Assembly (NCBI RefSeq): GCF_019904295.1 | Contig: NZ_CP065359.1 | Span: 1,947,001-2,011,000 of the forward strand | Direction of reading: 5' to 3' | Source: Ruegeria sp. SCSIO 43209 | GTDB taxonomy: Bacteria; Pseudomonadota; Alphaproteobacteria; Rhodobacterales; Rhodobacteraceae | Length of the DNA: 64,000 nucleotides | Part shown: positions 16,974 to 27,048 of the stretch, piece by piece | Position numbering within the stretch: position 1 is the first letter of the stretch | Layout: each line of letters starts with the position of its first letter | The notes under the pieces: generated by a model | The model's input: only the letters and a program-made list of their open reading frames with translations | What the model was told of the DNA's origin: nothing | Database searches by the model: none | Position numbers and translations under genes: made by a program

Positions 16974-18314
16974 TTAATGTTCGCGGAAAGCACGCGACAT
17001 ACTGTCGACCACCGGCTTGGCGATATAGGCCGCAAAGGTGCGTTCCTCGGTCTGGATCATGATCTCGGCGGGCATTCCGGGTGTCGGCACGAAGCCCCGC
17101 ACGCGACCCATCTCTTCCGTGGTCAGAGAAATGCGCGCCAGATAGACCTCTTGCGGCATACCGGCAGAGTCCTCAACCAGTGAGTCAGCCGAGACGTAAT
17201 AGACCTCGCCCTCAAGCACCGGCGTTGTCCGTTGATTGAGCGCGACAAGGCGCACTGTTGCGATCTGCCCGGTGACCACGCTGTCGATCTCGGTGCGCGG
17301 GATCTGTGCCTCGATGATCAGCGGAGCATCCGCGGGCAAAATCTCGGCAATCTGTTCGCCAGTTTCGATCACCCCGCCCGGCGTGTGGTGATGAAGCCGC
17401 ACCACTGTGCCGGTCACCGGGGCACGCACAACGGCACGGGCCAGAACGCTGCGGGCCTGGCGGGCTTTTTCACGCACACTTTCGAGGTCGGCTTCAATCA
17501 CGCCCAACTCGTCCAGCGCGGCCTCGCGATAGGCTGAGCGGGTGCGCAGAATCTGCTCTTCATACTTCAGCAACATCTGGTTGACCTCAGCCGTTTCAGC
17601 GCGCAAACGCGCCAGTTGACCCTCGGCCTCGGCCTGTACCCGGCGGATCGTATTTAGATCACCTTTGCGCACCAAGCCTTTCTCAAACAGTGAGAATTTT
17701 GTTTCGTACTCTTCCTCGAGTATCTCCGATCGCCGCTCCATGCTGATCAGTTGCGCTTCGAACCCCGACGCGCGAATTTTCAACGCCTCCATGTTGCGCT
17801 GAAGCAGCGCAATATCGTTCAGCAATGTCTTGCGCGACACATCAAAGCTGAGTTTCTGATTGTCGAGAATCGTCATGACTTCGACGTCATCCGACGCCTC
17901 GATCAATCCGGGTGAAAACACGAGGTTTTCCTGTTCGCTATGCTCGGCCAGCAACCGTTCGGTCATGGCCTGAAGGCGAAGTTTGCGAATGAACAATTCG
18001 CGTTCACTCGCCTCGGCCGAGGTCTGATCCAAAGTCATCATGATCTGTCCGGCTTGAACAGATTCACCTTCCGAGACCAGAATGTTCTCGATGATACCGC
18101 CTTCCAAATGCTGCACGATCTTGTTGCGGCCGGTCGCGACAAAGCTGCCTTGCGCGATGACTGCAGCGGCCAGAGGTGCACGGAAGGACCAGACGCCAAA
18201 GCCGCCAAAACAGACAATAAGCATGATAAAGCCAATCACGATGAATTTGGTGATCGAGCGCGGAACTTCAGAGTACCAAAGACCGCCTTCATCGGTGCGT
18301 GCCACGTCGTTCAT
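16974..18314 (-). CDS. Type I secretion membrane-fusion protein (HlyD/PrtE family)
   Basis: 446-aa periplasmic adaptor. A short cytoplasmic tail precedes one transmembrane helix at about 23-45 (FIVIGFIMLIVCFGGFGVW). A first lipoyl half follows (HLEGGIIENILVSEGESVQAG), then long coiled-coil segments at about 100-300, the second lipoyl half with VRAPVTGTVVRLHHHTPGGV, and a beta-barrel domain. It links the inner-membrane ATPase to an outer-membrane TolC, which is not in this window. It starts 3 bases after the ATPase stop, so the two are one unit. Confidence 0.93.
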   Translation of the reverse strand: MNDVARTDEGGLWYSEVPRSITKFIVIGFIMLIVCFGGFGVWSFRAPLAAAVIAQGSFVATGRNKIVQHLEGGIIENILVSEGESVQAGQIMMTLDQTSAEASERELFIRKLRLQAMTERLLAEHSEQENLVFSPGLIEASDDVEVMTILDNQKLSFDVSRKTLLNDIALLQRNMEALKIRASGFEAQLISMERRSEILEEEYETKFSLFEKGLVRKGDLNTIRRVQAEAEGQLARLRAETAEVNQMLLKYEEQILRTRSAYREAALDELGVIEADLESVREKARQARSVLARAVVRAPVTGTVVRLHHHTPGGVIETGEQIAEILPADAPLIIEAQIPRTEIDSVVTGQIATVRLVALNQRTTPVLEGEVYYVSADSLVEDSAGMPQEVYLARISLTTEEMGRVRGFVPTPGMPAEIMIQTEERTFAAYIAKPVVDSMSRAFREH

Positions 18315-18317
18315 CGC

Positions 18318-20624
18318 TTAATCCCCCTTGCCCTGTATTTCGGGCGGTTGCTGGCGCGGCCCGTTGAGCTGTTCCAGCACCTGTTCGCGCTGCCCGAACA
18401 GCGCCACGCGCCCATCGGTCAGCAGCATGATCTTGTCGACAACATTCAACAGAGTCGGCTTTTGCGTAATCACTACAACGGTGATCTTGCTTTCCTTTGC
18501 TTGCTGAATTGCGCGCGCAAGCGCCTTGTCACCTGCCACGTCGAGGTTCGAATTCGGCTCATCCAGAACAACCAAACGCGGGTTGCCGAAGAAGGCACGC
18601 GCCAAAGCAATACGCTGCTTCTGGCCACCTGAGAGAGGTGAGCCGTCGGCGGCCACAACAGTCTCATACCCCTGCGGCAGTGTAGCGATCATGTTGTGCA
18701 CGTCGGCCAAAACGGCGGCATCGTGGATCTGCTCATCCGTGGCATCGGCACGCATCCGGCCAATATTGTCTTTGATGCTGCCTGGGAACAGCTGTACGTC
18801 TTGCGGCAGATAGCCAATATTTTCGCCAAACTGGCGGGGATCCCAGTTGCGGATATCCATCAGGTCCAGCCGCACACTGCCTGAGGTCGGCAGGATCGAA
18901 CCCACCAGCGTTTTACCAAGTGTCGTTTTGCCTGCGCCTGAATTCCCGATGATCGCCAGAGTTTCACCCGGGTTCAGCGCAAAGGTAATCCCGTTCAGAA
19001 CCACCCGCTTGGTGCCGCCGGGGACATATAGCAGGCGTTCGACATCCAACCGCCCCTCAGGCCGTGGTAGGCGCAGTTTTTCATATTGCAGGGCCGAGTT
19101 CGACAGCAGAGCCTTGATCCGCCCAAAAGCGCCACGCGTCAGTAGGAAGGTATTCCAACCCTCAATCGAGCCTTCGATCGGCGCAAAAGCCCGCCCTGCG
19201 ATGATCGAGGCGGCGATGACCATACCGCCTGTAATTTCGCCCTGCAGCGCAAGAAATGCGCCCCAGCCCAGAATGCCGATCTGCGTCAAAAGACGGACGG
19301 CACGTGAAATGGCCGCGAAGATCACGTTACGATCCTGCGCCTTGACCTGCCATGTCAGCGATTGTGCGGTGTCACGCCCCCAGATGCGCACTGCCTCGGG
19401 GATCATCGCCAAAGCGTTGATGATCTGACTGTTGCGCGACATTGAATCCAGATGCTGGTTCGCCATTGATTGCGCCTGATTGGCCTTGGCAAAGGGCTTG
19501 GCGGTCATTTTCTGGTTGATCAGCGCGATGATCATCAGAATCACGGCCGTCGTCACCACAATCATCCCAAGTTGCGGATGCACCAGAAAGATCATCAGGA
19601 TGAACAGCGGTGCAAATGGTACATCCAGAAATGAGATCAGAGTGCCCGAGACCAGAAAGCCCCGCACCTGTTGCAGATCCCCAAGTGTCTGATATTCGCG
19701 TCCGTTGCCGTGCAGCGAGGCATGGGCCGCAGCGCTAAGAACCGGGGCCCCAAGACGGGCGGCGACCTCGACCGCTGTACGCATCAGCATGAACCGACGA
19801 ACGGCATCAAATGCGGCTTGAAAAATGACTGCTCCGGCAACGATTGCCGTCAGCATGATCAACGTATCCAGCGAGCGACTAGTCAGAACCCGGTCACTGA
19901 TCTGAAACAGGTAGATCGGGATCGCTAGGATCAGGACGTTGGTCGCGCAGGTCAGTACCAGCACGAAGGCCAGATTGCGCCAAATCGCGCGCAGTGAGGT
20001 ACGCAGCGTCTTCTGGAAATCCTCAGGCGGCGTGCGTTTGTGGAATGTTTGGGGTGGCCCCTTGCCATCGCCACCACCCGTCCCCGGGCGCAGCAAGGGT
20101 TGGTTGGCCTTGGCCTCGATCGTGGTGCCCATGCGGTCTTTACCATCCGACGGCGCAGAGGGGGTCATGCGTGCAGTCGATTGGTCGGCGGTTTCACAAT
20201 CGGGGGCTTCGGTATCGGCCACCCCAGTGTCGCCACCCGCAGGATCCTTATCTTGCGCGGGCCGCGACGACGCGCGCCGAAGGGGAGAACCAGCGCGCGG
20301 TTGTGATGTTTGATCCAACTGCTCTGCCTGGGTCTGCCCCGGATTATCCGGTTGTGTCGTCGCCTGAGGCGCTTCTGATTGCCGCGATCGTTTCGCGGGC
20401 CCGGCAACCGGGGTGTCACTTGCTTCCGGGGTCTCTGGTTTGGTTTCGGGTTCCGCCAGTTGCATATCACTTGTCAAACGCAGGCGGGACGCTGTTTTTG
20501 CAAGTTTACTTTCATTTGGTTTTGCTACCCGATTTCGGGGTTCCAGGGTCAATGGGCCTCCGCCTCCGTGCCGGTCCAATGGACTTGCAAAACGGGTGCG
20601 GCGCGACGAAAAAACGATCGACAT
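18318..20624 (-). CDS. Type I secretion ABC transporter with long disordered N-terminus
   Basis: 768-aa exporter. Residues about 210-480 are the membrane domain and 500-768 the ATPase: Walker A GNSGAGKTT at 560-568, signature LSGGQKQR at 664-671, Walker B LVVLDEPNSNLD at 684-695. Family members (PrtD/PrsD type) are about 570 aa; here about 200 extra residues precede the first helix, low-complexity and rich in Pro, Gln, Thr, Ser, Asp. The switch position after the last ATPase strand reads VVVITQKP, so the usual His is Gln721. The cargo is probably the two proteins encoded upstream. Confidence 0.9.
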   Translation of the reverse strand: MSIVFSSRRTRFASPLDRHGGGGPLTLEPRNRVAKPNESKLAKTASRLRLTSDMQLAEPETKPETPEASDTPVAGPAKRSRQSEAPQATTQPDNPGQTQAEQLDQTSQPRAGSPLRRASSRPAQDKDPAGGDTGVADTEAPDCETADQSTARMTPSAPSDGKDRMGTTIEAKANQPLLRPGTGGGDGKGPPQTFHKRTPPEDFQKTLRTSLRAIWRNLAFVLVLTCATNVLILAIPIYLFQISDRVLTSRSLDTLIMLTAIVAGAVIFQAAFDAVRRFMLMRTAVEVAARLGAPVLSAAAHASLHGNGREYQTLGDLQQVRGFLVSGTLISFLDVPFAPLFILMIFLVHPQLGMIVVTTAVILMIIALINQKMTAKPFAKANQAQSMANQHLDSMSRNSQIINALAMIPEAVRIWGRDTAQSLTWQVKAQDRNVIFAAISRAVRLLTQIGILGWGAFLALQGEITGGMVIAASIIAGRAFAPIEGSIEGWNTFLLTRGAFGRIKALLSNSALQYEKLRLPRPEGRLDVERLLYVPGGTKRVVLNGITFALNPGETLAIIGNSGAGKTTLGKTLVGSILPTSGSVRLDLMDIRNWDPRQFGENIGYLPQDVQLFPGSIKDNIGRMRADATDEQIHDAAVLADVHNMIATLPQGYETVVAADGSPLSGGQKQRIALARAFFGNPRLVVLDEPNSNLDVAGDKALARAIQQAKESKITVVVITQKPTLLNVVDKIMLLTDGRVALFGQREQVLEQLNGPRQQPPEIQGKGD

Positions 20625-20660
20625 AAACTAACCTTCCGGTCACTCGTAAATCAGGAAATA

Positions 20661-22607
20661 TTAGGCCAGCATGGTCTGCAGGCCATCGGAGGAATTCGCC
20701 ATTTCGCTTGGCGTGAGATCGTTACCGTTAGGCCCAATGCCATTGTCGTGACCTGGCATACCCGCCTCTTCCATGATGGCGGCGATTGCCTCGTTGGTCA
20801 TCTCGGCGATGTCCTCATTCGTGGGCATGTCAAGCAGGCTTGCCTGATGCAGTAGCAGGTCAGAAAATGCCCCATCCTGAGCCATAACAACCGAATCCAC
20901 GCCGGCCTTGGTTACATTGGCGGCGTTCAGCATCGCATTGCTGCCTGCCAGAACCTCGGTCTCGTCCGCGTGGGGACCATTCAGATATACGTCATCCTGA
21001 TCGGCAAGCATCGTCGATTGCTCGGCCACGTTGACCTGAACCAGCGATCCATCGATCTTGAGGACCCGCATCTGCTCCATGCCAGCAAACATCGGATCGT
21101 TCATTAGCGCCTCTTCCAGCGCTGCCATGTCGTCCTCGCCCATGGTCATGGCGTCGGCCATGGAGTCGTGCATCGCCTGATACGTATCTTCGCCTTCTTT
21201 CTTGAGAGAAACCTCGTTCATAACCAGGTTCTCGTCCGATCCATCGATGGGTCCGGGCAATCCGCCCATCACCACATCGTCATCCAATAATACGTGCGTC
21301 TGGACAAACGCATCGACCGATATCATGTCGCCTTCGATCATGATCAGGTCATAATAACTGCCAAGTTGAAGAATATTGGTGACATCAATCAACTCGTTGT
21401 CACCCAACGCATACAGCGTGGTCGTCGCGCTAATCTCGGCATCAATATGATCGATATCCGTTGCGTCGATGTCCTGCTTGACAAAATTTGCAACGATCAG
21501 ATCGGTCGTAATCCAATCAACATGCACATATGCCGGGGCATCGTCTCCACTTGAGCCTTTCTTAAGCCAAGGGGCTGAGTTGCCTTCGACCTCGATCGTC
21601 GACGAGTGCACCACATTGGTGCCCGAGCCGCCATTCGTGCCTTTGTCTGTGTCAGATACAACGGCGACCTGGCTCACCATGGCCAGTTCGATTGCTTTTC
21701 CACCGACCGCAATATAAGGCGCATCGACCCAGGCCACAGTTGCGTTCATCTCGTTGATCGCAAGGTTGCCGCCTGCGATCACCGTGTGACCTTCGGCAAA
21801 TTCGTCTTCCTCGTCCTGAGCCCATTCGGCGGGCATCATATCGGGCGTTTCGTCTTCTTCTTCCTCGTCCAGTCTATGATGCGCAGGCAGAAGATCTTCC
21901 CATTCCGGGGCTTCGTCCACATACTCACCATTGACGATCACGCCCATCGCGTCTTCGCCGTGGAACTGATAAACAACCGCGCCTTCAACTTCGACATTGA
22001 TCGGGGCCAACATCGCTTCGGCCAAAGACTCGACGTATTCAACCGACAAGTAGTCCGAGATCGAGAACGAGGGCACGGCAAACGCGTGCATCGATGCTGC
22101 GACCTGCGCAGCCGCCTCGGCCAATGCGATCAACTGATCGACATCGCGGAAATCTCCCTCGCCGACAACGTCATTGTCGCGTAGGAAAATCGTCTGGAAC
22201 GTGTAGGTCACAGCAGACCCGATAAGCTCTGTCACAATCTCCAGCTGCTGCTCGATCACAAACGTTGCACCTAGGCCGGTTGTCGCTTCGGGTAACGGCG
22301 GACCGTCTGAGAGTGGTGGTTCAAGTACAACGACCGTTTCAAATTCAGGGCCGTCGGTTGGGGGTGGAAGTTCAGGAGTGGCGGGGGGGGTGTCAAACCG
22401 ATAGGAAAGCGGACCATATTTGCCTGGGTCCAATTCAAGATCTGCCTTGATCCGGATCTTTGCGGGTTCTTCCAGTTCGTCCAGTTCCGCCTTGCGCCGC
22501 ATGGCGGTGAACTCTTCGTACTGATCCCTCAACCGGGCTTTTTCAATCGTAAGATCAAAAGATCCAATAAAGTGTGCAATCTTTTCGGTAACACTATCGA
22601 ATGACAT
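20661..22607 (-). CDS. Large acidic protein of the secretion locus, function unknown
   Basis: 648 aa, strongly acidic (for example RLDEEEEDETPDMMPAEW, AQDEEDEFAEGHT). N-terminal 60 residues look helical; 75-115 are Pro-rich; from about 270 the protein has recurring beta-like segments with N/D-G turns (AGGNLAINEMNATVAWVDA, YIAVGGKAIELAMVSQVAVV, LLDDDVVMGGLPG, LAGSNAMLNAANVTKAGVD). No signal peptide and no RTX nonapeptides are visible; it ends SSDGLQTMLA. Position directly upstream of the ATPase gene suggests a secreted substrate or an assembly partner of the 815-aa protein. I recognise no family; relation to known adhesins is not shown. Confidence 0.7.
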   Translation of the reverse strand: MSFDSVTEKIAHFIGSFDLTIEKARLRDQYEEFTAMRRKAELDELEEPAKIRIKADLELDPGKYGPLSYRFDTPPATPELPPPTDGPEFETVVVLEPPLSDGPPLPEATTGLGATFVIEQQLEIVTELIGSAVTYTFQTIFLRDNDVVGEGDFRDVDQLIALAEAAAQVAASMHAFAVPSFSISDYLSVEYVESLAEAMLAPINVEVEGAVVYQFHGEDAMGVIVNGEYVDEAPEWEDLLPAHHRLDEEEEDETPDMMPAEWAQDEEDEFAEGHTVIAGGNLAINEMNATVAWVDAPYIAVGGKAIELAMVSQVAVVSDTDKGTNGGSGTNVVHSSTIEVEGNSAPWLKKGSSGDDAPAYVHVDWITTDLIVANFVKQDIDATDIDHIDAEISATTTLYALGDNELIDVTNILQLGSYYDLIMIEGDMISVDAFVQTHVLLDDDVVMGGLPGPIDGSDENLVMNEVSLKKEGEDTYQAMHDSMADAMTMGEDDMAALEEALMNDPMFAGMEQMRVLKIDGSLVQVNVAEQSTMLADQDDVYLNGPHADETEVLAGSNAMLNAANVTKAGVDSVVMAQDGAFSDLLLHQASLLDMPTNEDIAEMTNEAIAAIMEEAGMPGHDNGIGPNGNDLTPSEMANSSDGLQTMLA

Positions 22608-22660
22608 TTCGATGATCCCTTACCCCCTTGCCGGCTAAAATTTCCGGTTCGGGATTTGCT

Positions 22661-22725
22661 GGGCCGAGGCCACATTACGCGGCCCCGGCGATTTCATTGA
22701 ACGGGGGCCGATAATGCGGCCCCCG
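22661..22725. promoter_or_regulatory. Two strong stem-loops between the repeat-protein gene and the rest of the secretion operon
   Basis: A perfect 9-pair stem CGGGGGCCG / CGGCCCCCG (22702-22725, loop ATAATG) and a second stem GGGCCG / CGGCCC (22661-22685) fill the 128-base gap after the 815-aa gene. Neither has a clear T-tract on the minus strand. They could be an attenuator or a 3' stabiliser that makes the first gene much more expressed than the exporter, a common design for abundant exported polymers. Confidence 0.5.
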
Positions 22726-22735
22726 CGAATTGGTC

Positions 22736-25183
22736 TTAGACCTCGGTGTCGTCGCTCGAATAAGTCGAGGTCATCGAACCGCCAACCATGGTCGTATCGA
22801 CCGAGTTACCAAGCACGTTGGCACCCTGTACGATCGATTGGTTGAACGCGTTCGTATCGACGACTGCTGCTGCGGATGCATAAGACTCGCCGTTGACGAT
22901 ACCATCGCCACCATTATCCGAACCCCAGGTACCGCCATTACCGCCAGCACCACCGGCACCCGAATATGCACCGGATGCTTCACCACCGGTGTTCATTGCA
23001 CCTGTGGTTGCACCACCAGTAGACGAGCCCATGACGTCGCCGCTGGTACCGCCAGTCGATGCCGCTGCACCACCGGCACCGCCGTCACCTGACATCGCAG
23101 TACCTGTTGCATCACCTGAAGCCATCGAGTCCGCATCATTATCGGACGAAGCATCTCCACCGTATCCGGCAATCGCTTCGGCAAGGCTTTCGGCATAACC
23201 ATCGTTGGCTGAATCGGCCCATGCTTCAGAGTCACCGCCGTTTCCGGCTTCGTTGGTTGCGTCAGCTGAACCAGCACCGCTTCCGGCCGAGCTTGCCTCG
23301 GGGTTGGCCGTACCGCCAGCGCCACCAGTACCTTCGGCCGATGCCATTCCATCGCCGCTGGCGTCTGCTGATCCATTACTTGTGTTGGTACCACCATTAC
23401 CACCAGAACCGTCAACGTCCTGATCATTGTCGGCAGAGCCATCGATATCACCAGGTGACTGCGTGATTACAGGGCCGGCAGCATCTTGGTCACCAACACC
23501 TTGCGCATCCGCATCCGTGTCAACGTAGCCGCCGCCTGCACCACCGGTTCCTGTACCGCCAGCACCCGGTCCGCCAGTACCTGTGCCACCAGTACCAGTA
23601 CCTCCAGTACCCGTACCACCAGTACCTGTACCGCCAGTACCCGTACCGCCGGTACCTGCACCACCAGTACCACCGTCTCCGCCGGTACCGTTCGAGTTAC
23701 CAGCTGCTGCAGCTTCTTCGTCTCCGTCAGGATCTTCCTCTTCCACAAGGAGTACCGGGAATGGGAAGGCTTCTTCGACCGAGCCGGAATCTCCGCCGGT
23801 GCCGTCGCCACCATTGGCATTGCCACCGGAGCCTTCGCCACCAGTGCCTTCACCGCCTGAGCCTTCACCGCCTGAGCCTTCACCGCCTGAGCCTTCGCCC
23901 CCTGAGCCTTCGCCGCCGGAGCCTTCACCGCCGGAACCGCTACCGCCATCGGCATCATTCCAGCCCATCGCGCCAGCGCCAGCCAGACCCAAACCAATAT
24001 TGCCTCCAGAGGAAGACTCGTTGGCTTCGTTGGTTCCGTCGCTAGAGTTGTCTGCCGAACCATCGTTATCGGCATCACCAGCGCCACCATCGGCACCGTC
24101 GTTGGAAGCATCGGTGCCTGCCAGACCAAGGCCAGCAGCTAATGCCCCAGATGTATTGTCACCACCGTCTGCATCGCCATCGGCGTTCGCTCCGGACAAA
24201 CCAAGACCAAGACCAAGGCCAATCGATCCGGCATTACCACCGTTACCACCAGTCGAGTCACTATCGGAACTCGCTTCGCCGTGGTTGTCGGCATTGGACT
24301 CGCTGTCTGCTGCGCCGCCTTCGCCGCCGGTGCTGTCACCGTCTGCGCTGGCACTCGAATGACCAAGACCCAGGCTTGCGTTATAGGTATCACCCGAAGA
24401 TGCGCCATCTCCACCTGTCGCAGCGCTATCAGCATTTCCTGAATGACCACCAAAGGCCAGCGAATGGCTGCCATTGGTGTCGCCATAGGCTTCACCACCA
24501 TAGCTCATGCCGCCATCGCCAGAGGAGCCACCGTCGTTGTTTACGTCGATACCGTCTTCGGCATAGGCTTCACCGCCGTTGGCGTCACCGCTTTGTGTGA
24601 AATCACCTGAATTCACGACACTTGCGGTACCCAGACTGTCATTGTCTTCCAGGCTGGCAAACTGCTGGTTGATTGACGCGAAATCATTTCCGGGCCCGTC
24701 TTGCGAGATATCAATGTTGACGTCGTCGCCTGGATCGTAATTTACATCGTCACCGGCAGTAATAACGTCGCCGACATCACCTTCGACGTCCTCAATATCA
24801 ACGTCGACTTTGTCATCGTCGCGCGGAATCCACTCTCCGCCGCCGAAGTCGATATCTACGGTCGCGGTATTGGTGTTGCTGTCGTCACCGCCATTGGTCT
24901 GTGAGTTGCTGTCGTTACCACCATTGGTGTTGCTGTCGTTACCACCATTGGTGTTGCTGTCGTTACCACCATTGGTGTTGCTGTCGTTACCACCATTGGT
25001 GTTGCTGTCGTTACCACCGTTGGTGTTGCTGTCGTCGCCCTGCTGTTGTTGCTGCTGCTGTTGCTGTTGGTTCAAATCTTCAACAGCCATCTCTTCTTCT
25101 TCCAGCTGCGGTTCGTCTACAACAGGATCCTGATCGTCGATAACTTCTTGGACATCGGTGATTGGAGCTAATCTGCGTTCCAT
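22736..25183 (-). CDS. Gly/Asn/Asp/Ser-rich tandem-repeat protein, probable type I secretion cargo
   Basis: 815 aa from ATG 25183 (MERRLAPITDVQEV). An acidic N-terminus is followed by ten glutamines (39-48), then 8-residue repeats NDSNTNGG (about 49-107), an Asp-rich beta-like part (DDVNIDISQDGPGND), long SADGDSTGGEGG-style segments with recurring GLGLGL and SLGLGHSSA motifs, GSGGE five-residue repeats (about 413-461), TGTGG repeats (about 498-551), and a non-repeat end with SIVQGANVLGNS and SSDDTEV. No signal peptide, no RTX motif. Composition resembles silk-like or matrix proteins. First gene of the secretion operon, divergent from a LuxR-type regulator. An upstream in-frame start at 25270 lacks support. 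Confidence 0.75.
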   Translation of the reverse strand: MERRLAPITDVQEVIDDQDPVVDEPQLEEEEMAVEDLNQQQQQQQQQQGDDSNTNGGNDSNTNGGNDSNTNGGNDSNTNGGNDSNTNGGNDSNSQTNGGDDSNTNTATVDIDFGGGEWIPRDDDKVDVDIEDVEGDVGDVITAGDDVNYDPGDDVNIDISQDGPGNDFASINQQFASLEDNDSLGTASVVNSGDFTQSGDANGGEAYAEDGIDVNNDGGSSGDGGMSYGGEAYGDTNGSHSLAFGGHSGNADSAATGGDGASSGDTYNASLGLGHSSASADGDSTGGEGGAADSESNADNHGEASSDSDSTGGNGGNAGSIGLGLGLGLSGANADGDADGGDNTSGALAAGLGLAGTDASNDGADGGAGDADNDGSADNSSDGTNEANESSSGGNIGLGLAGAGAMGWNDADGGSGSGGEGSGGEGSGGEGSGGEGSGGEGSGGEGTGGEGSGGNANGGDGTGGDSGSVEEAFPFPVLLVEEEDPDGDEEAAAAGNSNGTGGDGGTGGAGTGGTGTGGTGTGGTGTGGTGTGGTGTGGPGAGGTGTGGAGGGYVDTDADAQGVGDQDAAGPVITQSPGDIDGSADNDQDVDGSGGNGGTNTSNGSADASGDGMASAEGTGGAGGTANPEASSAGSGAGSADATNEAGNGGDSEAWADSANDGYAESLAEAIAGYGGDASSDNDADSMASGDATGTAMSGDGGAGGAAASTGGTSGDVMGSSTGGATTGAMNTGGEASGAYSGAGGAGGNGGTWGSDNGGDGIVNGESYASAAAVVDTNAFNQSIVQGANVLGNSVDTTMVGGSMTSTYSSDDTEV
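23560..23690. repeat. Coding minisatellite (TGTGG peptide repeats)
   Basis: Tandem 15-base units of the type CCAGTACCTGTACCG, varied mainly at third codon positions, encode alternating TGTGG/AGTGG pentapeptides in the 815-aa protein. Confidence 0.8.
23805..23945. repeat. Coding minisatellite (GSGGE peptide repeats)
   Basis: About nine tandem 15-base units close to CCTGAGCCTTCACCG encode GSGGE/GTGGE pentapeptides. Copies differ at only one or two bases, pointing to recent expansion. Confidence 0.85.
24863..25068. repeat. Coding minisatellite (24-base NDSNTNGG units) and CAG/CAA tract
   Basis: Five nearly identical 24-base units (TTACCACCATTGGTGTTGCTG plus TCG on the plus strand) flanked by two degenerate copies, next to ten Gln codons mixed CAA/CAG. 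Near-identity at the base level means copy number may vary between strains. Confidence 0.9.
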
Positions 25184-25796
25184 AATAAGTTCCACTTTTA
25201 CTGAAGCACCAGACCGCCATTCATCTACAAAGCGGTAACAGGCGCGGTTTGAAACAGACTTTGCGCGCAACGTGTCAATCTGGACACTCGCGCGGCCGTG
25301 AAGGTCTTCTGTTTGGTTTGCCCCCCTTTCTCGGCTAAGCCGATTCCATGACCACGGAGAATTCGCAGAAATACGCGGACCGCAGGCACGTCAGGTCTAA
25401 GATCACTTCACAAATTGAAGCTTGGGCATGGTTGCAGCGATAAGGGGATGTGCATAGCTGGCCGAAAGGGCTATTTTCCGTAATTAGCTGTTTAATATAT
25501 ATATTTTTCGAAATCTGGCGTATTTCGCACCAAATTTGCCTCAGAAACAATCATGCGCAAACATATAGGATTATTAACCCTGAAATTTCATAAAGTTACG
25601 CTAAAACTATATACGAAAAACCTGATCAAAGGTTCTAGTACGCGGTATTGCGGAACCCGCCTTTGGTTGCTGAAACACGTACTTTCAGCTATGATAAGGT
25701 ACTATTTGAGTTCAAAGTTACTGTTTCGCGCCATCCAGTTCTGTACCCGATTTAAAGTTTCAGAGGGTGGCGTTTGTATTAGTGGGGGGAAGATCA
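25184..25796. promoter_or_regulatory. 613-base AT-rich divergent control region
   Basis: The only gap above 300 bases in the window. It separates the 815-aa repeat-protein gene (minus) from the LuxR-type regulator (plus) and is clearly more AT-rich than its surroundings, for example TTTAATATATATATTTTTCG near 25490. AAAGTTAC occurs at 25592 and 25714 and AAAGTTTC at 25754; these may be regulator sites. Short frames inside it have no plausible ribosome site or protein character, so I see no gene. Promoters for both directions are expected here but exact boxes cannot be assigned. Confidence 0.6.
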
Positions 25797-26558
25797 ATGA
25801 ATATTTCATTGCAAGAAGACGCCCGTGATCAGATTGAATATCCCGAAGAGCTGTCGATCATTTTTATCGGCAAGGAACTGTTCTACTCGAACCAAACCCT
25901 GAGAAGTGTTCAAAGCGAATTCGGCGTTCGTGCGTCAAGATATGAAAGCCTTGACGACCTGCTGGCCGAGAGTGGGAACTCTGTTCCCTCCGAGCGCATC
26001 ATTGTTGTGGATCAGATGATGCTCGAAGATCTGTTGGCGCGGCCCGCTGATTACTCCCGGCTCGCCGAGACAGGATGTCTGGCCTTCGCCTATCGCAAGA
26101 AAAGTCCGGCCCGGGTTCTGTTCGAACGCTGGGATCGTACCCGTTTCGGCAGTGTCGGGTATTTGCCAATGAACGTGGCGCCGGATGTTTGGCGCGCAAT
26201 ACTGCGCCTTCTGATGCACGAAGAGCTGCACCTGCCCTGCTTTCTGGCCGACAGCATGACCGCAACACAAAGTGCGCCAGGCACACCTATCGAAAAACAG
26301 CCTGCAACCAGAACCCGGTCGCCTGACAAACTGTTGCGATACTCAAAGCTGACGCGCCGCGAAAAGCAAGTCCTGAGGCTGGTATCGCAAGGCAAGAGCA
26401 ACAAGACCATTGCGTCGAATCTGGGCATCACCGAACACACCGTCAAACTGCATATGCACAATGTCTCGGGCAAGATCGATGTGAGCAACCGGACTGAAGC
26501 TGCGCATTTCTACTTTGAGGTCGCGCCGAACGAAGCGCGCAACGCGCCCGTTGGATGA
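25797..26558 (+). CDS. LuxR/FixJ-type transcriptional regulator
   Basis: 253 aa. Residues about 1-140 resemble a degenerate receiver-like domain (ELSIIFIGKELFYSNQTLRS, RIIVVDQMMLEDLLARP) without a clear phospho-acceptor context. The C-terminal 65 residues are a GerE/LuxR helix-turn-helix: LTRREKQVLRLVSQGKSNKT, then IASNLGITEHTVKLHMHNV. ATG 25797 follows GGGGGGAAG and is preferred to a GTG at 25767. Divergent from the secretion operon, so it probably controls it, in the manner of CsgD-type biofilm regulators; that link is inference. Confidence 0.85.
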   Translation: MNISLQEDARDQIEYPEELSIIFIGKELFYSNQTLRSVQSEFGVRASRYESLDDLLAESGNSVPSERIIVVDQMMLEDLLARPADYSRLAETGCLAFAYRKKSPARVLFERWDRTRFGSVGYLPMNVAPDVWRAILRLLMHEELHLPCFLADSMTATQSAPGTPIEKQPATRTRSPDKLLRYSKLTRREKQVLRLVSQGKSNKTIASNLGITEHTVKLHMHNVSGKIDVSNRTEAAHFYFEVAPNEARNAPVG

Positions 26559-27048
26559 GGCATTCGAAACCCGGTTCGACCGGCTCATTCTGTTGGTGGG
26601 TCGGCTCAACTATATGTGGACGAACACTGAAAGCCTGCTGATCCACCTGATCGCAGGTCTGACCGGGGCCAAAAAAGATGTTGCGGTCATCATATTCCTG
26701 ACGCTTAACACCACACGTGCCCGTATCGATCTGGTCGAACGTCTCGCCAAGATGGAGGGTCGCCCCCGTGAAATCCGCGATCCGATTCTCGAACACACCC
26801 AGCGGTTGTCGCGCCTGTCCTCTATTCGAAACAAGTACAATCACTGCATCTATTCTTTCGATCAGGAAAGCGGAAATCCAAAGACCATCCTGATGCGCAT
26901 TGCTGATCGCAAGACCGACATCAAACTTGGTCGCGAAGACACAGTTGACGACAAAGCAATGAAAGAAATCGAGGATGTTGTCACTCAGCTCTCGAATGCC
27001 AACAGGGATATCTGGAAATTGATCACCCAACTGGGTTTCCCTGTCTGA
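26551..27048 (+). CDS. HEPN-like small protein
   Basis: 165 aa if TTG 26551 is used (overlapping the regulator stop by 8 bases); TTG 26515 and ATG 26614 are alternatives. All-helical, with IRNKYNH at residues 92-98, an Rx4H motif (Arg93, His98) like the catalytic motif of HEPN ribonucleases. The N-terminal half has a long amphipathic stretch (TESLLIHLIAGLTGAKKDVA). It is probably co-transcribed with the LuxR regulator. No antitoxin-like partner is visible, so a toxin role is not supported; HEPN assignment is from the motif and fold impression only. Confidence 0.6.
   Translation: MDEAFETRFDRLILLVGRLNYMWTNTESLLIHLIAGLTGAKKDVAVIIFLTLNTTRARIDLVERLAKMEGRPREIRDPILEHTQRLSRLSSIRNKYNHCIYSFDQESGNPKTILMRIADRKTDIKLGREDTVDDKAMKEIEDVVTQLSNANRDIWKLITQLGFPV

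Follow-up and report, generated by a model that had tools for sequence, protein, structure and literature searches.

We describe a six-gene cassette of Ruegeria sp. SCSIO 43209 that, with a probability we put at roughly 0.6, builds an extracellular protein matrix or fiber through its own type I exporter. The cassette lies in a window of 64,000 nucleotides (NZ_CP065359.1, positions 1,947,001-2,011,000), which is the whole stretch of DNA analyzed and to which plain coordinates refer. Its genes form two divergent units, with orf177 and luxR on one side of a long control region and, on the other, the genes for a silk-like protein, an acidic repeat protein, an ABC exporter and an HlyD-type adaptor, in that order. 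An earlier interpretation made from the letters of this DNA (the sequence-only reading) had proposed five of these genes, all of which were confirmed as open reading frames (ORFs). Its view of these genes as one system holds in that the type I exporter, the two non-RTX proteins and the divergent LuxR-type regulator are inherited together as a discrete unit, but this unit comprises six genes rather than five, the overlooked one being orf177, whose 5' end overlaps the 3' end of luxR. The features of the cassette are listed here with lengths in amino acids (aa).

16974-18314, reverse strand: HlyD-type membrane fusion protein, 446 aa (TIGR01843, E 1.4e-107, above cut-off)
18318-20624, reverse strand: PrtD-type ABC exporter, 768 aa (TIGR01842, E 4.2e-208, above cut-off)
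20661-22607, reverse strand: acidic repeat protein, 648 aa, isoelectric point 4.05, no Cys; predicted cargo (ORF list, composition, alignment, model)
22736-25183, reverse strand: silk-like protein rich in Gly, Asp, Ser and Asn, 815 aa from ATG, no Cys; second predicted cargo (ORF, composition)
25184-25796, no strand: divergent control region between the silk-like gene and luxR (spacing over loci)
25767-26558, forward strand: LuxR/GerE-type regulator, 263 aa from GTG (PF00196, E 2.1e-20; alignment)
26515-27048, forward strand: orf177, the conserved sixth gene, with a mostly helical product carrying an RNxxNH motif (alignment, co-occurrence, model)

The gene order that the sequence-only reading proposed to look for in other Rhodobacteraceae was found there; it recurs in Rhodobacterales and in Hyphomicrobiales, and the cassette is kept in many marine and some soil alphaproteobacteria. 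Conservation was examined in a named-locus set consisting of the best 80 of 95 relatives, with one genome per species. A uniform script placed an ABC and an HlyD gene on the same strand as the acidic gene in 78 of 80 loci each and a low-complexity ORF upstream of it in 77, and the opposite strand facing the acidic gene carried luxR and orf177 in 75 loci each. Both missing ABC and HlyD pairs are explained by contigs that end before the exporter genes (L089 and L101). The contig likewise ends before the regulator genes in L120, L123, L144 and L149 and before orf177 in L092, and L120 and L123 also leave no room for a silk-like gene. The sole fully flanked locus without a called silk-like ORF is L130; apart from it and from a gene fusion in L075, genes are absent from the 80 loci only at contig ends. 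This linkage is far beyond chance, and the order is found in more than 30 named genera. At one locus (L113, Paracoccus rhizosphaerae) luxR was matched on the far side of orf177, and the two regulatory genes thus appear swapped.

All six genes were also present at 24 of 26 loci in a second set, of which 25 came from genomes of the family and one from another family of the class. As 11 of these loci are evidently the same records as named loci, the two sets are not independent. One exception, L049, ends at a contig start; the other, L159, has two short silk-like relatives below the composition threshold and no LuxR gene was found in it, and a frame between its cassette halves looks by eye like a transposase. 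Co-occurrence in both sets shows that the two large genes are inherited with the exporter and the divergent regulator. When four neighbors in the window (glyA, a hydrolase, a rhodanese and a threonine dehydratase-like gene) were used as queries, glyA, the rhodanese and the threonine dehydratase-like gene did not recur and the hydrolase did so only in L047, of the same genus, so the flanks differ from locus to locus. Among 295 genomes of the family the acidic protein was matched in 27 and orf177 in 27, with 26 in common. The acidic match in G242 was rejected as spurious, as the family profile fails to find it again; its frame starts like a short-chain dehydrogenase. In G277, which has orf177 only, that gene lies at most 300 bp from a contig end. 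In the class, of which 385 genomes were scanned, two were matched by the acidic profile, one of them the source genome, and three by orf177; by these counts the cassette is patchy within the family and rare outside it. Over 72 loci the distances between the proteins co-vary strongly, with Mantel r of 0.67-0.86 against at most 0.22 in permutations. An unrooted HlyD tree of 72 loci joins the copies from Hyphomicrobiales (Mesorhizobium, Nitratireductor, Fulvimarina and Roseibium) in one group, with support of 97/92, among the rhodobacteral ones, and since the tree is unrooted we claim no direction of transfer.

The transport genes are clearly assigned by their family scores to type I secretion (PrtD/HlyD type), with 692 bits for the exporter against TIGR01842 (cut-off 510) and 360 bits for the adaptor against TIGR01843 (cut-off 209). 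Between exporters of the cassette the median pairwise identity over 72 loci is 0.68. The next best ABC matches in the source genome are 35, 34 and 28% identical to the cassette protein and, unlike it, sit no more than a few kb from RTX-repeat frames; exporter-type matches at G000:C4:81662-88253 and C4:318079-330762 were found no more than a few kb from such frames (982 and 1287 aa). The sequence-only reading had also named an opposite outcome, that homologous exporters lie beside RTX cargo while the two large genes are not conserved with them; this was checked and the result favors that reading, as both cargo genes are kept with the exporter. It had further expected TolC to be encoded elsewhere, and a TolC gene (TIGR01844, above cut-off; C1:1879976-1881202) is present some 66 kb ahead of the window. 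At its N-terminus, ahead of the membrane domain, the exporter is extended by about 205 aa of low-complexity sequence, and the length of this extension varies from about 48 to 693 aa across 79 cassette ABC proteins. A basic extension acting as a dock for the acidic cargo was considered and ruled out, the net charge being positive in only 42 of the 79.

The cassette resembles RTX systems in its exporter and adaptor families and differs from them in that the RTX model PF00353 has no match in the window, against 29 matches elsewhere in the genome, in agreement with the earlier statement that RTX nonapeptides are missing here. A loose pattern for such repeats, GGxGxDx[LIVMFYA], occurs once in the acidic proteins (1.1 in shuffled sequences) and 38 times in the silk-like ones (25.7 ± 4.1 shuffled, maximum 33), a slight excess in glycine-rich sequence. 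A study of the exoproteome of R. pomeroyi gives RTX-type proteins as its main secreted proteins (PMC2953401).

Neither the acidic nor the low-complexity protein has a Pfam or NCBIfam model above cut-off, and when 35 aligned relatives of the acidic protein were scanned against Pfam, no family was matched by more than two of them (best E 0.022). Source databases label the named relatives of the acidic protein as type I secretion protein or hypothetical protein. The protein has a net charge of -102, and its alignment contains invariant, regularly spaced Gln, Asn and Asp residues. Two patterns capture this spacing. Q-x5-D-x-D occurs five times in the window protein against a shuffled mean of 0.24, and 377 times in 81 acidic proteins against 19.6 ± 4.1 (maximum 28 in 100 shuffles); G-x-N-x3-N occurs 250 times in the same 81 proteins against 9.3 ± 3.0. 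The core is predicted to be β-stranded and solenoid-like. The acidic profile has three matches among PDB sequences, none better than E 0.47, and folds that are missing from such match lists prove nothing. The copies of the first pattern, located by pattern search, are the following.

22170-22196, reverse strand: Q-x5-D-x-D copy 1, acidic protein residues 138-146
21645-21671, reverse strand: Q-x5-D-x-D copy 2, residues 313-321
21450-21476, reverse strand: Q-x5-D-x-D copy 3, residues 378-386
21276-21302, reverse strand: Q-x5-D-x-D copy 4, residues 436-444
20994-21020, reverse strand: Q-x5-D-x-D copy 5, residues 530-538

The silk-like ORF (22736-25270, reverse strand) encodes 844 aa if translation starts at a TTG and 815 aa if it starts at the ATG at 25183. 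Its product has a net charge of -140 and is organized as two half-units that flank a glycine-rich linker, and its coding DNA contains tandem arrays.

24638-24664, reverse strand: Q-x5-D-x-D motif of the N-terminal half-unit, residues 174-182 (pattern; profile match to the acidic protein)
22934-24586, reverse strand: glycine-rich low-complexity linker with tandem arrays, limits approximate and set by eye
22739-22924, reverse strand: C-terminal half-unit of the NQSIVxGANVLGN-VDxTxVGG type, in which relatives resemble one another most

At uncut loci the silk-like proteins range from 251 to 1632 aa. The C-terminus is similar across proteins of 251 to more than 1400 aa, and the glycine-rich part between the half-units is the most variable. 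Across 78 silk-like proteins Q-x5-D-x-D occurs 91 times against 27.9 ± 5.3 in shuffled sequences, with at least one copy in 64 of the 78, and G-x-N-x3-N is not above chance (114 against 100.4 ± 9.1). A search of the acidic proteins with the silk-like C-terminal core by hmmsearch was not significant, which weakens the evidence for a shared repeat, and profile-profile comparison with permuted controls was used instead. The silk-like N-terminal core aligned on the first acidic unit with a score of 30.8 and a probability of 31%, none of 60 column-permuted controls scoring above 17.7. The C-terminal core aligned on a later acidic unit with a score of 37.2 and a probability of 80% (best control, 24.7). 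The comparison is limited in that the N-terminal core could be extracted from only 48 of the 78 proteins and the aligned stretches span 25 and 34 columns. Within these limits, a repeat common to the acidic and silk-like proteins is shown at the level of sequence profiles, beyond permuted controls. The sequence-only reading correctly described two non-RTX proteins but overlooked this repeat, for which we found no name.

Two silk-like genes in tandem were observed in L055 (9079-10545 and 10727-12406) and in L159 (5012-5857 and 6173-7006). The L159 products are short and rich in Gln and Gly, and for all their divergence they still keep QINNLVDND and GANIQFN. Low complexity hampers the search for homologues, and a search by the C-terminal part returned one odd match, P0100 (524 aa, with precomputed AAA domains).

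The properties of the two large proteins point to export through the cassette exporter. Over the family they contain 0.71 (acidic) and 0.29 (silk-like) Cys per 1000 aa, against 14.0 in LuxR and 9.0 in orf177. Both are without a hydrophobic leader, judged by the first 45 residues, where the median maximal hydrophobicity is 1.37 for the acidic and 0.25 for the silk-like protein and 2.65 for the HlyD membrane anchor. Type I secretion signals are C-terminal, and the end of the acidic protein, which fits a loose D-x-M-Q-T-M-L-A type pattern in 70 of 80 acidic proteins, may be such a signal. Were the two proteins instead cytoplasmic, with storage, phase-separating or regulatory roles, the exporter would handle another substrate. 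Two points lean this way and count against our proposal of an exported matrix: export is deduced here from sequence, and Cys is also scarce in the exporter (2.18 per 1000 aa) and adaptor (1.54). The fixed place of the genes directly upstream of the exporter, their co-inheritance with it, their far lower Cys content than that of the two adjoining regulatory genes and the conserved C-terminal residues of the acidic protein argue for export, and we consider a cytoplasmic location very improbable.

Toxins and enzymes are frequent cargo of type I systems, and the exporter could be imagined to secrete a diffusible effector, enzyme or bacteriocin for which the silk-like protein is a mere carrier or linker. 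No enzymatic or toxin domain was found above cut-off in the two large proteins of the window, however, and none was common to more than two of the 35 acidic relatives; the range of silk-like lengths would also suit structure rather than activity. We regard a diffusible product as highly unlikely, and prefer an exported matrix or fiber.

The regulator has a GerE-type helix-turn-helix (HTH) domain at its C-terminus and an N-terminal domain matched to no family. Translation more probably begins at the ATG at 25797, which follows GGGGGAAG, than at the GTG. The HTH region of the regulator matches the c-di-GMP-binding VpsT (3kln, E 1.4e-18) among 46 LuxR-type HTH matches, and the match to the CsgD model (E 1.5e-13) falls below the cut-off of that model; the protein may be of the VpsT/CsgD sort, with an N-terminus that is perhaps receiver-like. 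The control region spans about 610 bp, or 613 bp when counted between the two ATG starts, and its median over 73 loci, taken from first possible start codons, is 609 bp. An inverted repeat, CGGCTAAGCCG, lies within it at 25332-25342, and its 10-mers recur in 9 of 73 loci against a shuffle maximum of 5, which makes it a candidate operator for a subset of relatives. An operator conserved across the control regions did not emerge, shared k-mers exceeding shuffles only in small subsets of the 73 loci.

The product of orf177 is the most alike of those not involved in transport, with a mean column identity of 53% (21 sequences) and a median pairwise identity over 72 loci of 0.51, against 0.31 for the acidic protein and 0.30 for LuxR. 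Its structure model has a predicted local distance difference test score (pLDDT) of 89.5, and the RNxxNH motif, present in 62 of 75 relatives, lies at the end of model helix 85-108. An R-x4-6-H motif is a mark of the HEPN superfamily, and RNxxNH fits it; by fold and sequence family the protein may be HEPN-like, a weak assignment that is suggestive but not established. In strain KLH11 (L075, Rhodobacteraceae bacterium) luxR and orf177 form one open frame of 422 aa, with a LuxR domain at 6-251 and an orf177 domain at 252-422. As the fusion occurs at one locus only, it is a hint of a physical partnership and no proof, and orf177 is presumed to be a partner of the regulator. Among 7993 candidates scored, 2024 are relatives of orf177 at E <= 0.001, and the named ones are labelled hypothetical in source databases. 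Relatives 57% identical to orf177 were seen in Tritonibacter mobilis (P0160 and similar), a species absent from the match list of the acidic protein, and possibly belong to a diverged cassette. A distant relative at G359:C1:3226295-3226552 (E 4.3e-11), whose genome gave no match for the acidic protein, may represent orf177 outside the cassette.

From the anatomy of the cassette we infer the following course. The LuxR-type regulator, probably with orf177, which perhaps modulates it, would switch on the divergent operon. The PrtD-type ABC exporter and the HlyD adaptor, with TolC from elsewhere, would export both acidic, Cys-poor proteins in an unfolded state. Once outside, the acidic protein would fold into a β-solenoid of Gln/Asn/Asp repeats, and the silk-like half-units would dock into or cap this solenoid, leaving the glycine-rich linker as a flexible, hydrated brush or elastic cross-link. 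In this way the two proteins would co-assemble, with a presumed function as a matrix.

By analogy, the nearest tested precedent for this logic is the cabABC operon, whose product CabA is an RTX-type protein. In V. vulnificus, cabABC is described as an operon that encodes the calcium-binding matrix protein CabA with its own type I system and that BrpT, a regulator of the VpsT type, activates (PMC6978666). The likeness lies in putative matrix cargo placed in one predicted operon with type I exporter genes, as judged by gene order and spacing, and in a LuxR-family, putatively biofilm-related regulator; the cassette differs in having two cargo proteins with another repeat and in carrying its regulator and a sixth gene within the cassette, in divergent orientation. 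A second likeness is to the rhizobial PrsDE exporter, an alphaproteobacterial type I system for which Rap proteins are reported as biofilm matrix substrates (PMC9298526), with the difference that Rap proteins carry Ra/CHDL domains and Pfam scans found no such domain here. Both precedents would also suit a product that leaves by the same export and is not an ordered fiber, in which the Q-x5-D-x-D repeats bind calcium, giving a calcium-dependent, polysaccharide-binding matrix or a surface layer. The net charges of both cargo proteins and their repeated DxD pairs are in keeping with calcium binding, but the scan of 35 acidic proteins found no RTX or cadherin-like domain, the window has no PF00353 match, and calcium binding would not account for the conservation of Gln and Asn in the repeat; on balance we find it doubtful.

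Within the proposed matrix or fiber, a more specific form can be entertained tentatively, namely a further kind of functional amyloid or ordered β-solenoid fiber that a type I system would export in a single step without a dedicated outer-membrane pore, made of two subunits with a new Gln/Asn/Asp repeat, one of them with a silk-like brush between half-repeats, and governed by a LuxR-type regulator and an HEPN-like protein. By predicted β-solenoid and layout, the two large proteins recall the functional amyloids FapC and CsgA, although matches at the level of structure are very weak. Fap is exported by its own channel, FapF, and not by a type I system, whereas the cassette encodes a type I exporter. 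Papers on Fap of Pseudomonas describe two internally homologous subunits with conserved Gln/Asn repeats and linkers of varying length (PMC3792158, PMC12392863), and one of them gives the minimal repeat as G-x4-N-x3-G-x6-N and reports Fap only in Gamma-, Beta- and Deltaproteobacteria (PMC3792158). The two subunits with common repeats and variable linkers would make this an analogy of layout, not homology. The Fap minimal repeat was absent from 80 acidic proteins and occurred 8 times in the silk-like ones against 22.9 when shuffled; FapF and other fap genes were assigned to none of the six cassette genes, the genome not having been searched for them.

Curli genes have a csgBAC/csgDEFG layout in which a LuxR-family regulator is divergent from structural genes with a common repeat, and in these two respects the cassette is similar. 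It differs in that the source genome has neither the Curlin repeat (PF07012; E. coli control positive) nor CsgG (PF03783; four controls positive), and a Curlin pattern was found in none of the 80 acidic and none of the 77 silk-like proteins. A paper on an engineered marine bacterium mentions endogenous CsgA (PMC12281610). Membership in the RTX, curli and Fap systems was thus rejected by pattern and family tests, which counts against the likeness to functional amyloids. We recognized no description of this cassette among titles and opening lines of abstracts in the open-licence literature, a scope that leaves subscription journals mostly outside and does not show absence in print.

In kind the cassette appears familiar, pairing a type I exporter with cargo that is dedicated and probably matrix-forming, and what appears new is the cargo, its repeat and a sixth gene outside the families searched. 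If the proposal is true, many alphaproteobacteria, mainly roseobacters, would hold a compact protein-matrix kit whose cargo lies outside the searched family models. One exporter, two cargo genes and one regulator would offer a simple genetic handle on the surface life of an abundant marine group and a case on which to test whether and how self-assembling proteins leave by the type I route. The silk-like protein would represent a natural silk-like protein polymer, and orf177, a hypothetical protein with many relatives, would gain a biological context.

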